Shown here piece after piece: positions 2,065 to 10,349 of a DNA stretch of 64,000 nt. Where the stretch lies: assembly GCA_015064395.1 (NCBI GenBank), contig SVSH01000001.1, positions 58,956 through 122,955 on the forward strand, read 5' to 3'. How positions within the stretch are numbered: position 1 is the stretch's first letter; each line of letters starts with the position of its first letter. The DNA is from Oscillospiraceae bacterium (GTDB lineage: Bacteria; Bacillota; Clostridia; Oscillospirales; CAG-272). Made by a program: the position numbers and the translations under genes. Under the pieces are notes generated by a model, which saw nothing but the letters and a program-made list of their open reading frames with translations, was not told where the DNA came from and did not search any database.

Positions 2065-3009
2065 ATGGAAAAGAACAATAAAAAATACAACGATCGCGGC
2101 GCAAGATCCTACGGCAAGGGAGGACCTCGCCAAGATGGACAAAAGAATGACCGTCGCCCGCCGCGCGACACCAAGAGCGCGGGCAAGTACGATCACGTCG
2201 ATCATAGTGCGCAGAATGCCAATCCGGCGGCAGGCTACGCCAATGAAGATATGAGCAGCGGTATCGTGATCGGCAGAAATGCCGTTCGTGAGCTGCTTCA
2301 CAGTGAGCGCACCATTGATAAGCTGCTCGTCCAGCGCGGTGAGCGTGAGGGCTCCATCGTGGTTTTGGTTGCGCAGGCATTGGAAAAGAAGATTCCCGTG
2401 GTCGAGGTCGATCGCGCCAAACTGGACGCCATTGCCGGCTTTGCGCCCCACCAGGGCGTGATCGCTATGGCGGCAGAGAAGGAATACGTTGACGTAGAGG
2501 ATATTCTTGCCATCGCCCGTGAGCGAGGGGAGGATGCCATTATTGCCATTGCCGACGGCATTACCGATCCCTACAATCTCGGCGCGCTCATTCGCTGTGC
2601 CGAGGGCTTGGGAGCTCACGGATTGATCCTGCCCAAGCGGCGGGCTGTGGGACTGACGCCCCTGGTTTCCAAGGCCAGCGCGGGTGCGATCGAGCATCTG
2701 GCAGTGGCTAAGGTAGCTAATTTGGCCCAGACGGTACAGGAACTGCAAAAGCAGGGCGTTTGGGTGTACGCGGCCGAGGCGGGCGGACAGTCCTACGACA
2801 AGACGGACCTGACAGGCCCCTGCGCCATCATCTTCGGCAGTGAGGGCAACGGCGTGTCGGCTTTGCTCAAGCAAAAGTGCGACGCGATCATTTCGATCCC
2901 CATGCGGGGACAGGTCAATTCTCTCAACGTGTCGACGGCGGCCTCTATTTTGCTTGCAGAGGCGGCAAGACAGCACGCACAAGCCAGAGAAAAACGGTCG
3001 GCAGAGTAA
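2065..3009 (+). CDS. rlmB: 23S rRNA (guanosine-2'-O)-methyltransferase RlmB (SpoU/TrmH family)
   Basis: SpoU motifs: DGITDPYNLGALIRCAEGLGAHGLILPKRRA, GSEGNGVSALLKQKCD, SIPMRGQVNSLNVSTAASILL. Confidence 0.92.
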   Translation: MEKNNKKYNDRGARSYGKGGPRQDGQKNDRRPPRDTKSAGKYDHVDHSAQNANPAAGYANEDMSSGIVIGRNAVRELLHSERTIDKLLVQRGEREGSIVVLVAQALEKKIPVVEVDRAKLDAIAGFAPHQGVIAMAAEKEYVDVEDILAIARERGEDAIIAIADGITDPYNLGALIRCAEGLGAHGLILPKRRAVGLTPLVSKASAGAIEHLAVAKVANLAQTVQELQKQGVWVYAAEAGGQSYDKTDLTGPCAIIFGSEGNGVSALLKQKCDAIISIPMRGQVNSLNVSTAASILLAEAARQHAQAREKRSAE

Positions 3010-3043
3010 GGTCGGTTGACCGATTACAGGAAAGGAGACGTTC

Positions 3044-6000
3044 TTGATGAATCGCAAATCACAGGATTCCACTGACGATTTGTTGCGCGCCCTGCGGACG
3101 TTGATGGATCAGGACGAGGTGGACGAGCAGGGAACACCGGACGACGTTTTTGGAGATCGCTCACCGTCCGAGCGTGACCACAAGCAGCAGGACGAGGAGA
3201 TTGCGGCGTTTGATTCCTACATGGCGGCCTTGCTTGGCGAAGTGGTGTCGGGCGATGTGTCGGGTCGGGATGGCGCCAAGAAAACGACAAGGACGAGAAA
3301 AAAGAAGGCCAAGGCTGCCCCCGAGACGAGCGTTGCGCTCCGTCCGGAGGAAGAATTGGTTGAACTGACAGAGGAGCCGGATGCTGACGAGGAGCCCCGT
3401 GTCAAGTCGCTTACTTCCCCAGAGGAGACCGAGGAGGTCTCTCCTCCCGACGCACAGGTCGAGCTTCCGGGAGACGTGCTGGGCGAGGAGGTTCCCACCT
3501 TTGAGGACGTTTACGTGACCGAAGAGGAGGACGACATTACGGCTAAATCGGAGTTGCAGATCATCGAGCAGCTGCGCATTCCCACCGATTCGTTTGGTAC
3601 GCTTGAAGCCGCGGAAGAGAAGAGCACGGCGGATGAATTGCCTGCCGGATGGAGCGAGATCACGGCGATCTCGGCTTCAGATGAGGCATCGGATGCACCC
3701 TTGAGTGCACAGCCTGCGGAATATACGGACGTTGGTTTGGATGAAAACGGCATGCCGCTTCCCATTGATACTACTGTCCCTGATTTTGATACCGAAGCCG
3801 AGCCTGCAGATACGCAGGAAGAATCGCTTTCTCTGCGCGAGGGTGATATCATTCTGGACGCGGATGAGGATATTCCGCAGACGGAGGAACAGGAAAATAC
3901 GCAAGAGCCCCAGCCCGTGCAAGAGACGCCGGCGGAGGAAAAAAGCGCAACGGTGACGCCCGTTTCTTCTCCCCTGGATGCGGCACGAAGTGCCAATGCT
4001 CGGGCAGAGGCCCAGCGAGCAGAGGAGCAGATAGCGCGTCCCAAGCAGTCCCCCCTGGATGCTATCGCGGCAGGCCGGATGGGAGAACGCGGCAACGTGA
4101 CGTCGCTGGGCGGTGCTCCCGTCTTTGGGCGCAATACCAATCGCGAGCGTTCTCTGACGGATGACGACGTTGAGCTGCTGTTGGAGCTGGGTTATGAGAG
4201 CAATCTTTCCCAAAAGGTTGGATCCCAGCGGGTAGAGCTGCTCAAAAACCGTCGCGCGGATGATGAGCAGATGCGCCGTCAGCGCGAGCATGCTTACGGC
4301 TACGCGGGTGAGGAATATACGGGACACGCACAGGATGACAAGATCAAGAAGACGTATCAAAAGCATCTTCGCGCCGCCAAGGCACGGCTCTTTGGCGTGG
4401 TCCTTTTGACGATTCTTGTCTTGCTTTCGGATATTTTCCCCATGCTGCGGAGCAATTTCCCTCCGTTGGATGCTCTTCTCCCCGCGACGGGACTGTATGG
4501 TGCGGTCGGATTGCTGTTGCTTGTACTGACAGCGCTGATCTGCCTGCCTCATCTGAAGAAGGGCTTTGGCGCCCTCTTCCAATTTGCTCCCGTTCCCGGC
4601 TCTTTGCCGGCTATATTGTTGGTATTTACGCTTCTTTATGATGTGTTTGGCATCTTTATGCCCACCTGCCCGACCCTTTTGAATTTCCCGACGGTATTGG
4701 CACTGCTGTTGCTGTGTGTCGGAGAGCGCATGCGGGTCGGACAGCAAAAGGAGACGTTTGAGGTGGTCAGCGCCCATTCGCGCAAGATCGCGGCGGATGG
4801 CATGGCGCCTCGCAAGAAAAAGGTCGTTCGTGGCGGCCATATCGTTAAGATCATCAACGACGACGCGGATCGTGTGCTCTGGCGAGTACGCCCCACCGAG
4901 CAGGTGGCGGGGTATTTCCGTCGGACGAGCGCGAGAACACAGCGCTATCGTCCGCTCGGCTTTCTTTTGGCCGGTGCCCTGATCGCCGCTGTGATCGTGG
5001 CAGTGATGACACTGCTGGTGCTGGGAGACTTTGTAGCGTCGGTAACGGCATTCCTGTTGACATTGCAGCTTGCTCTGCCTTTTTCTGCCTTGGTGTCGTA
5101 TGCATACCCCATGCTGTTTGCTACAAGACAGCTCTCGGAGCAGGGATGCGCCATCGTCGGCGAGAGTGCCGTGGAGGAATATTCGGGCGAAAAGACGCTG
5201 TTGTTTGACGACACCGAGATGTTCCGCTCCAAGAGCTCGACCGAGATCACCATTAAGGGCGGAGGAGAGACGAGAAAGTATATCCGCTACGCCAAGCGAC
5301 TGTTTTATACCATGGGCGGTACGCTCCGCAACGTAACGACCTCGGATCTGTCAAAGGAGACCTACGAGGAGCGAGTGGAGATCCTTCGCGTTATGGAGGA
5401 GGGGGTAGAGGCCCGCATCGACGGCAAGGTGCATATTCTGGCCGGTACCTCGGCGTTTATGGTCAAGAACGGCATTCGTGTGCCGGGTGAAAACGCGGAA
5501 TTGCTGGTGCGCCGACACGTGGAGAGCTGTATTTTGTATCTCGCCTTTGACGGCAAGCTCCGACTGGGGTATGAGATCGATTATCGCATCTCGGGTCGCT
5601 TTGAACAAGCAGCGGAGCAGCTGTACCGCGAAGGAACGGCGGTGGCCATCGAAACCTACGACCCCAGTATCCACGCCGACTTCCTTACCCGCAGCCGCGA
5701 GGAGGGACGCTGTCCCATCCGCGTGATCAAGCCGGTTCGCTTTGAAAAGGCAAGTGAAGCGCAAATGATCGACAGCGGCCTTGTGGCGACGAGAAGTGCC
5801 CGCGACATGGCTCGCCTCTCCGTCACTTGTGACCGACTGGCACGCACGGACCGTCAGATGAACCATCTGCATCGCATTACCCTTGTGCTGGGCGCGGCTC
5901 TTTCGGGCGCGGCGGCACTGCTTGGCATGATCAACGTGGGTATTTCACTGGCAGTCGTTGCCCTTCAGCTGGCACTTTGTCTGCCTGTGATGATGCTGAC

Positions 6001-6094
6001 ACGTAAGAATATTTTGGATGAACAGGATCAAACGAAAGAATATGACAATCGAAACAGAGAATCAATACGCACAGGAGCCGATGACCTGCTGTAA
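3044..6094 (+). CDS. Large membrane protein: acidic disordered N-terminus plus a degenerate P-type-ATPase-like core
   Basis: Acidic low-complexity residues ~1-430, several TM helices, then LALPFSALVSYAYPMLFATRQLSEQGCAIVGESAVEEYSGEKTLLFDDTEMF in P-type ATPase order. Catalytic motifs are absent (see findings). Confidence 0.6.
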   Translation: MMNRKSQDSTDDLLRALRTLMDQDEVDEQGTPDDVFGDRSPSERDHKQQDEEIAAFDSYMAALLGEVVSGDVSGRDGAKKTTRTRKKKAKAAPETSVALRPEEELVELTEEPDADEEPRVKSLTSPEETEEVSPPDAQVELPGDVLGEEVPTFEDVYVTEEEDDITAKSELQIIEQLRIPTDSFGTLEAAEEKSTADELPAGWSEITAISASDEASDAPLSAQPAEYTDVGLDENGMPLPIDTTVPDFDTEAEPADTQEESLSLREGDIILDADEDIPQTEEQENTQEPQPVQETPAEEKSATVTPVSSPLDAARSANARAEAQRAEEQIARPKQSPLDAIAAGRMGERGNVTSLGGAPVFGRNTNRERSLTDDDVELLLELGYESNLSQKVGSQRVELLKNRRADDEQMRRQREHAYGYAGEEYTGHAQDDKIKKTYQKHLRAAKARLFGVVLLTILVLLSDIFPMLRSNFPPLDALLPATGLYGAVGLLLLVLTALICLPHLKKGFGALFQFAPVPGSLPAILLVFTLLYDVFGIFMPTCPTLLNFPTVLALLLLCVGERMRVGQQKETFEVVSAHSRKIAADGMAPRKKKVVRGGHIVKIINDDADRVLWRVRPTEQVAGYFRRTSARTQRYRPLGFLLAGALIAAVIVAVMTLLVLGDFVASVTAFLLTLQLALPFSALVSYAYPMLFATRQLSEQGCAIVGESAVEEYSGEKTLLFDDTEMFRSKSSTEITIKGGGETRKYIRYAKRLFYTMGGTLRNVTTSDLSKETYEERVEILRVMEEGVEARIDGKVHILAGTSAFMVKNGIRVPGENAELLVRRHVESCILYLAFDGKLRLGYEIDYRISGRFEQAAEQLYREGTAVAIETYDPSIHADFLTRSREEGRCPIRVIKPVRFEKASEAQMIDSGLVATRSARDMARLSVTCDRLARTDRQMNHLHRITLVLGAALSGAAALLGMINVGISLAVVALQLALCLPVMMLTRKNILDEQDQTKEYDNRNRESIRTGADDLL

Positions 6095-8783: not shown

Positions 8784-8852
8784 CTGTTAAACTGTTTTTA
8801 GTAAATTTGACTTTGCATGGCCTGTTTCGTAGCAAAGAGAAAAGAGGTGTCA

Positions 8853-10349
8853 ATGAAAAAAACGCTCGTGTTGATGCTGTCGGCAATAGTACTCATCACC
8901 TGTTGCGTGCCCACAGCCGTGGCAGAGACAACAGAAGCTCCCACGGCAGAATATGTCGATGTGCTCAACTGTGACACGACACAGGGCTTTACTTCGGAGA
9001 TGCAAATCGCCTTGGACACCGAGGATTTCACACAGGGCGAGGCGGCGGTCTCCTTTACGACCAGCATTCCCGCGGCATCCAATGCAACGGCAAGCATTGA
9101 GGCTACCTTTGCCCCGTTGAATATCGGTCCTGCTTCCGTGTTGGAATTTGATTTTTATATTCCGGATCCGACTCTCCTGCGCTCTACCTATATCATCGCG
9201 ATTGATCTTGGCTCGGCAGGGAAGTCGGACGAACAGGTGATAGACTGGCCTGCTACCGTCTTCGATAGCATTACCGAGGCCGGTTGGTATCATCTGGAAT
9301 TGCCCTTTAGTCGAGCAATCAGCCTTGGCTTCGATGCTACGTCACTCAATTATTTCCGCTTGCTGTTGATGCAAATCAACCCCGAGACGGATCTGACCGA
9401 CGTGGTGATCAAACTGGATAACGTGCGTGTTAAGATCCCGCCTGTAACGACGATCATGGTTGATAATTGCGATTTTATCAACGAGGGCGCGTGGGTGAAT
9501 TGGATGAACAATCCGGTTGCCCGCGACCCCGTGAACAAAACGGAAGGAACCGCCAGCTTGAATTTTGGCTTCATCCACACCGAGCAATATGGCGGTTGGT
9601 CTATGGTCTGCGAAAACAACTATGCTCCCATCAATGCCACAGGCGCTCTCTATTTGGAAATGGATGTATATGTATCCGACGTGGAACGCATGAAGCATTC
9701 GCACTACGGCCAGGCTGGTATCAATATTGAGATCACATCGTCGGGGACGTGCGACTACAACGAATACAGCTGGTCCTTGAGCAATTACGTATCCAAGAAC
9801 GGCTGGACGCACATTCGGTTGCCGATTGCCGAGGCTATCACACCGGGAGCGGATCGCGGTGCGCCGGATATGTCGGCGATCAACTACCTGCGCTTCCATA
9901 TTTTAGGTGTGCGCGAGGGACCGATCGAATTCCGTGTGGATAACGTGTATTTCACGGCGATGCAGGATACGGAGGAGCCTTTCTACGGTGCAACTCCCAT
10001 CGGCAAGCAGGAGCCCGGCGAGAACCCCGGTGAGAACCCCGGTGAGAACCCCGGCGAGAACCCCGGTGAGAACCCCGGCGAGAACCCCGGTGAAAACCCC
10101 GGTGAAAACCCCGGCGAGAATCCCGGCGAGAATCCCGATGAGAACCCCGGCGAAACGCCATCGGATACCGATAGCAAGTTGCGCGCCGAACAGACGGCAC
10201 GGCGTGCCAAGATCCTTTTGTTGCTGATGATCTTTGCCATCATCGGCATTGACGTGGTCGTCATGGCAGTGCGCCGCCGAAATGAGAAGATAGTGCTGTC
10301 CGAAGGAGAATTGCCTCCGGACATGCCGCAAGACGAAGGAGATGCGTAA
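8853..10349 (+). CDS. Secreted, membrane-anchored protein with two CBM-like beta-sandwich modules, (GENP)n linker and C-terminal TM helix
   Basis: Signal peptide MKKTLVLMLSAIVLITCCVPTAVA; modules starting VDVLNCD and IMVDNCD; Pro-rich linker; TM ILLLLMIFAIIGIDVVVMAV + RRRNEK. Confidence 0.75.
   Translation: MKKTLVLMLSAIVLITCCVPTAVAETTEAPTAEYVDVLNCDTTQGFTSEMQIALDTEDFTQGEAAVSFTTSIPAASNATASIEATFAPLNIGPASVLEFDFYIPDPTLLRSTYIIAIDLGSAGKSDEQVIDWPATVFDSITEAGWYHLELPFSRAISLGFDATSLNYFRLLLMQINPETDLTDVVIKLDNVRVKIPPVTTIMVDNCDFINEGAWVNWMNNPVARDPVNKTEGTASLNFGFIHTEQYGGWSMVCENNYAPINATGALYLEMDVYVSDVERMKHSHYGQAGINIEITSSGTCDYNEYSWSLSNYVSKNGWTHIRLPIAEAITPGADRGAPDMSAINYLRFHILGVREGPIEFRVDNVYFTAMQDTEEPFYGATPIGKQEPGENPGENPGENPGENPGENPGENPGENPGENPGENPGENPDENPGETPSDTDSKLRAEQTARRAKILLLLMIFAIIGIDVVVMAVRRRNEKIVLSEGELPPDMPQDEGDA
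10015..10158 (+). repeat. In-frame 12-bp tandem repeat encoding (GENP)10-DENP-GETP
   Basis: GGYGARAAYCCC units repeated about 12 times. Confidence 0.95.

Follow-up and report, generated by a model that had tools for sequence, protein, structure and literature searches.

The locus and its predicted features

The window, that is the whole stretch of 64,000 nucleotides analysed, carries at positions 3044-6094 of the (+) strand an open reading frame that an earlier sequence-only reading had described as a dead P-type-ATPase-like protein and that is borne out as a real gene. The frame opens with TTG 3044, directly followed by ATG 3047, and because an SD-like GAAAGGAG lies just 5' of ATG 3047 and homologues of the same genus start with MNR..., translation almost certainly begins at ATG 3047, giving a protein of 1015 amino acids that ends at the stop at 6094. 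Residue numbers are counted from TTG 3044 by default, and the full-length structural model is numbered from ATG 3047. The features of the locus are as follows.

2065-3009 (+): rlmB, 23S rRNA Gm2251 methyltransferase (TIGR00186, 212.7 bits, above the cut-off)
3047-6094 (+): pseudo-P1B-ATPase gene, 1015 amino acids, called as an open reading frame from TTG 3044
3071-3118 (+): N-terminal hook helix STDDLLRALR..., residues 9-24 counted from the ATG, pLDDT about 68, which is moderate
3236-3970 (+): acidic disordered linker, about residues 64-308, pLDDT about 30 in the full-length model
4160-4285 (+): membrane-proximal three-helix mini-domain LTDDDVELLLELGYESNLSQKVGSQRVELLKNRR, helices 372-380, 384-391 and 393-413, pLDDT about 80
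4325-4768 (+): first four TM helices, P1B-like MA/MB-M1-M2 (427-470, 481-511, 519-537, 546-574), aligned to LpCopA 118-207
4784-4909 (+): remnant actuator (A) domain of four strands, the TGES-bearing segment of P1B pumps being deleted
4940-5140 (+): M3-M4, with M4 prolines P679 and P689 kept and the CPC metal site gone (ALPFSALVSYAYP)
5204-5221 (+): P-domain strand and DKTGT site, reading FDDTEM (residues 721-726)
5252-5521 (+): N domain, with the HP motif reading GGTL (family GGPL) and the GxG motif reading EEGVEA
5654-5671 (+): TGDN site, reading TYDPSI (residues 871-876; family T-x-D-P-N-I)
5690-5800 (+): shortened second half of the P domain, the GDGxND-containing module being deleted
5801-6085 (+): stalk and last two TM helices (M5, M6), with family-conserved columns C929, Q975 and W978

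Further along, at 8817-10349, the window encodes a protein that is putatively anchored in the membrane, in which repeated PGEN units (GENPGENPGEN...) are followed by a single C-terminal TM helix. Relatives of it were found in loci of the same genus.

Relationship to P1B-type ATPases

A Pfam search with the window protein matched no family. NCBIfam TIGR01525 (heavy-metal P-type ATPase) matched its residues 645-878 with E=3e-5, at 23-25 bits, far below the curated cut-off of 346, and 20 of 30 homologues matched the same model individually (best 2e-11). No P-type match was obtained when the PDB was searched with the window protein as a single sequence; a profile of the 30 homologues retrieved LpCopA at E=8e-18, in three collinear segments, of which the first holds the early TM helices, the second M3-M4-P-N-P and the third the final two TM helices. 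Motif spacings in P1B pumps and in the pseudo-ATPase family are 44 and 44 residues from CPC to DKTGT, 38 and 38 from DKTGT to HP, and 114 and 113 from HP to TGD. The TIGR01525 and LpCopA matches together with these spacings support, on statistical grounds, the P-type ATPase order that had been proposed for the C-terminal half.

An AlphaFold2 model of residues 426-1016, built with the family alignment, reached a pLDDT of 85.5 and a pTM of 0.83, and the best 50 PDB fold matches listed for it were all P-type ATPases, headed by CopA (4bbj, E=6e-14, probability 1.00), ATP7B and ZntA and including KdpB. The HAD P-domain/N-domain arrangement, on which the sequence-only reading had been made to depend, is therefore present in the predicted fold. 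TM-scores of about 0.5 and an rmsd of about 12 A mean that the modelled protein shares the architecture of these pumps with its domains arranged differently. The domain order is that of true P1B pumps, namely four TM helices, A domain, two TM helices, P/N domain and two TM helices, so that in the predicted fold the 4+2+2 arrangement with A, P and N domains is found, the A domain as a remnant only. The sequence-only reading had named a TM pair ahead of the P domain and a final TM pair; the total is corrected to eight helices. In a quick, unrooted tree of P1B, P2 and pseudo-ATPases with long branches, the family forms a single clade (100% SH-aLRT), which is placed on the P1B side where P1B and P2 divide.

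Loss of catalytic and nucleotide-binding motifs

Motif counts were taken from 139 aligned rows, which come from partly overlapping loci and include one true P1B pump (L104). The column of the catalytic Asp is variable (D63 A18 S15 N12 and others), the following column, where DKTGT has Lys, holds D in 115/139, and the site goes on [ED]-V-F-P. The reading of the DKTGT position as DDTEM thus holds for the window protein, although the exact string is not conserved among homologues. The TYDP noted at the TGD position is found as well, and in the alignment it corresponds to T-x-D-P-N-I with D in 138, P in 115, N in 111 and I in 108 rows. HPL is replaced by GGPL and GxG has lost its first Gly (xxGI), and so neither of the two nucleotide motifs of the P1B N domain is found in the family, nor is the CPx metal site in M4, CPC having been lost; an N-terminal HMA domain was not found in the pseudo-ATPase.

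The absence of GDGxND from the window protein was likewise confirmed, and across the family it is by deletion, rather than by mutation alone, that the A domain has lost its TGES segment and the P domain its PEDK...GDGxND module, the median distance from TGD to the C-terminus being 125 amino acids compared with 162 in P1B. A presence/absence check of 17 proteins from within the order found DKTGT, GDGxND and TGES in none of them, and stray TGD and CPS strings once each; 30 of the 30 out-of-order matches examined carry DKTGT, GDGxND, TGES and CPC. As the catalytic loops are physically deleted, the protein should be unable to run the transport cycle.

Distribution, gene neighbourhood and selection

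The order bearing the gene is GTDB Oscillospirales; loci of its family f23 are matched by Anaeromassilibacillus senegalensis NZ_LN868536 and Clostridium sp. D33t1_170424_F3 (Acutalibacteraceae). A match was obtained in 53 of 59 near relatives, a few weak ones of which may be true pumps, and in 271 of 295 genomes of the order at E<=1e-15; because E-values as low as 4e-21 are possible for a true P1B pump with the same profile, we regard about 260/295 as the more cautious figure. When a class sample was searched with a broader profile of 49 rows, 17 of its 18 in-order genomes gave full-length matches of 308-705 bits, and among ~660 out-of-order genomes none exceeded 128 bits, matches spanning profile positions about 200-490 only. 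These weak matches were considered as possible relatives and rejected, all 30 examined being true P1B pumps. The pseudo-ATPase is nearly universal and single-copy in Oscillospirales, and it is absent from the ~660 genomes sampled beyond the order. One genome of family f23 (G372, 99% complete) is without the gene, which is present in G261 of the same genus, either through loss or through an assembly gap, and at another locus (L132, genome G046, 2709-4945) the protein is encoded as two open reading frames of 569 and 227 amino acids, reflecting a frameshift, an assembly error or a real split.

The gene had been placed between rlmB and a radical-SAM pair. The first neighbour is deeply conserved: in 75 of 78 loci, from different families of the order, rlmB is the gene immediately upstream, and in two of the other three loci the contig begins at the pseudo-ATPase gene. 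The radical-SAM genes (TIGR03960/TIGR03936) are a local feature, found downstream in 25/78 loci, mainly in the window's own family. L116 (G319) is the sole locus with upstream sequence in which no adjacent RlmB match was seen. The linkage to rlmB could reflect operon inheritance alone. Between close pairs of pseudo-ATPases dN/dS is 0.04-0.10.

Since the loss of motifs is fixed across an order-wide family under purifying selection, the designation as pseudo-ATPase is upheld and can be regarded as practically certain. The best explanation is that the family descends from a P1B-type metal pump whose catalysis was lost no later than the common ancestor of Oscillospirales and whose scaffold has been kept as a single copy beside rlmB.

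The acidic N-terminus and the membrane core

Residues 1-430 had been described as acidic and low-complexity. The acidic character is evident from the composition of the N-terminal part (D+E 25%, K+R 10%), and full disorder is limited to about residues 64-308. The hook helix has the consensus (S)x[DE]ELLxxL in the window's family and [FY]S[VLI][DE]DILxE elsewhere in the order, and the mini-domain is conserved among homologues as LDxxDxxLxxxLGxExEL...G. The idea that the hook motif is a docking code common to other proteins is not supported, as almost all matches of a pattern search in 20 genomes were the pseudo-ATPase gene itself; the one extra match examined sits within a CofE-like enzyme. Conservation of these tail motifs shows constraint, not tethering.

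Within the membrane the best-kept columns are P679 and P689 of M4 and Q975 and W978 of M6, the W978 column being L in the window protein, and no conserved charged or Cys/His/Met site was found within M3-M6. As conservation within the membrane is modest, a ligand site is uncertain; the strongest conservation extends over the cytosolic P/N domain too.

A second dead P-type protein in the same genome

Outside the window, the same genome encodes a second dead P-type protein of 934 amino acids (G000:C40:47263-50064; L210:3264-6068), which is P2/PMR1-like (TIGR01522, 97.6 bits, cut-off 798) and whose gene adjoins a ClpC-like gene on one side and rpsB-tsf-pyrH-frr on the other. Its relatives are spread over many genera of the family to which the window belongs. 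Like the pseudo-P1B family it belongs to the same bacterial family and has lost DKTGT and GDGxND, but it is P2-like and, in the quick unrooted tree, stands next to P2 pumps as a clade of its own, and it therefore represents a separate loss. That a single lineage has undergone two such losses independently makes decay by chance less probable.

Proposed role and alternative explanations

A protein so strongly conserved in a dead form must serve a purpose other than pumping. We infer, at a probability near one half, that it works without ATP as a scaffold in the membrane or as a sensor of a ligand; the role of regulator, sensor or scaffold suggested by the sequence-only reading is likewise one that we can only infer. 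According to this proposal, the protein would not cycle; its eight-helix core would serve as membrane anchor and probably as receptor for a ligand (lipid or ion) through the M4 proline kinks and the Q-x-x-W of M6; the fused P/N domains would form a rigid cytosolic platform with the new conserved surfaces FxD...FP and T-x-DPNI; and the long acidic tail with its conserved hook helix would tether a soluble partner and recruit it to the membrane.

Among the alternatives, the one that survives best, although still unlikely, is that the dead pump is a regulatory subunit which heteromerises with a live P-type ATPase and controls it, or which partners the second dead protein. Pseudoenzymes often regulate active relatives, and the genome does contain live P1B (G000:C49) and P2 (G000:C3, C41) pumps in addition to the dead P2-like protein. 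However, the pump genes are unlinked, the fixed neighbour being rlmB, P1B pumps are usually under the control of metal-binding domains and repressors, and the long independent tail would be left unexplained. A link to ribosomes or translation, in which the protein would dock ribosomes, rRNA or a maturation factor at the membrane and would be coupled to RlmB, is a little less likely still: it would account for the adjacency to rlmB across families of the order, and the acidic tail may lure basic ribosomal factors, but the argument starts from adjacency alone, no RNA-binding domain was found, and rlmB is present in bacteria that do not have the pseudo-ATPase gene. The same low probability is given to a passive permease or a lipid or ion facilitator whose TM core would conduct or scramble with no need of ATP. 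The kept M4 prolines and M6 Q-x-x-W are consistent with it, as is the description of TMEM94, also reported to be inactive, with lipid in its TM gorge (PMC12134183), whereas the membrane part has no conserved charged or Cys/His/Met site in M3-M6, has lost CPC and shares the strongest conservation with the cytosolic P/N domain.

A live, non-canonical pump that hydrolyses ATP by means of other residues is very improbable. Such a case has been claimed for ERMA/TMEM94, which is without TGES and has DKQGI and GSSANL and is nevertheless described as an Asp-dependent Mg2+ transporter (PMC13322241), but in the pseudo-ATPase family the catalytic Asp itself is unconserved (D in only 63/139), the segments with GDGxND and TGES have been removed outright by deletion and the HP and GxG motifs are lost. 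Finally, a decaying pseudogene or an assembly artefact, for which the loss of every catalytic motif might speak, was rejected with near certainty on account of a dN/dS of 0.04-0.1, intact open reading frames throughout the order and new family-specific conserved motifs.

Taking the scaffold or receptor proposal together with the second, P2-type loss, we consider it somewhat better than an even chance that this is the first order-wide bacterial family of dead P-type proteins, retained almost universally, fixed beside rlmB and now serving as an ATP-independent receptor or scaffold with a recruiting tail, and that these bacteria have repeatedly turned P-type pumps into dead regulatory devices.

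Comparison with known systems

Among P-type ATPases, a textbook superfamily, hardly any dead members are known, and the one prominent case, TMEM94/ERMA, is disputed. The dead pump of Oscillospirales, probably a core gene in a major gut clade, offers a clean natural system for studying the use of a pump scaffold without pumping, and such dead P-type genes should not be annotated as transporters. A literature search of open-access papers found no report of a bacterial family of dead P-type ATPases.

With the P1B ATPases (CopA, ZntA, ATP7B; TIGR01525) the pseudo-ATPase shares the 4+2+2 TM helices, the position of P/N between M4 and M5, the motif spacings and the fold. Unlike them, it is without DKTGT, TGES, TGD, GDGxND, CPC, HP and GxG, has a long acidic tail and a reduced A domain, and no HMA domain was found in it. 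In Plasmodium, GC-beta contains a P4-ATPase domain with degenerate signatures (PMC6592433), which differs in being of the P4 type, fused to a guanylate cyclase and from a protist. For TMEM94, a human ER protein, no ATPase activity was detected and no nucleotide was seen at the site (PMC12134183), whereas for ERMA/TMEM94 an active, Asp-dependent Mg2+ pump is claimed (PMC13322241). Compared by published descriptions only, it resembles the bacterial family in its P-type fold, the absence of TGES and the replacement of GDGxND, and differs in being eukaryotic and SPCA-like, with 10 TM helices and the Asp kept in DKQGI; in the bacterial family the Asp is variable, whole segments are deleted and the best fold matches are P1B. 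The pseudo-ATPase is thus closest to P1B pumps by descent and closest to TMEM94/ERMA by way of life.
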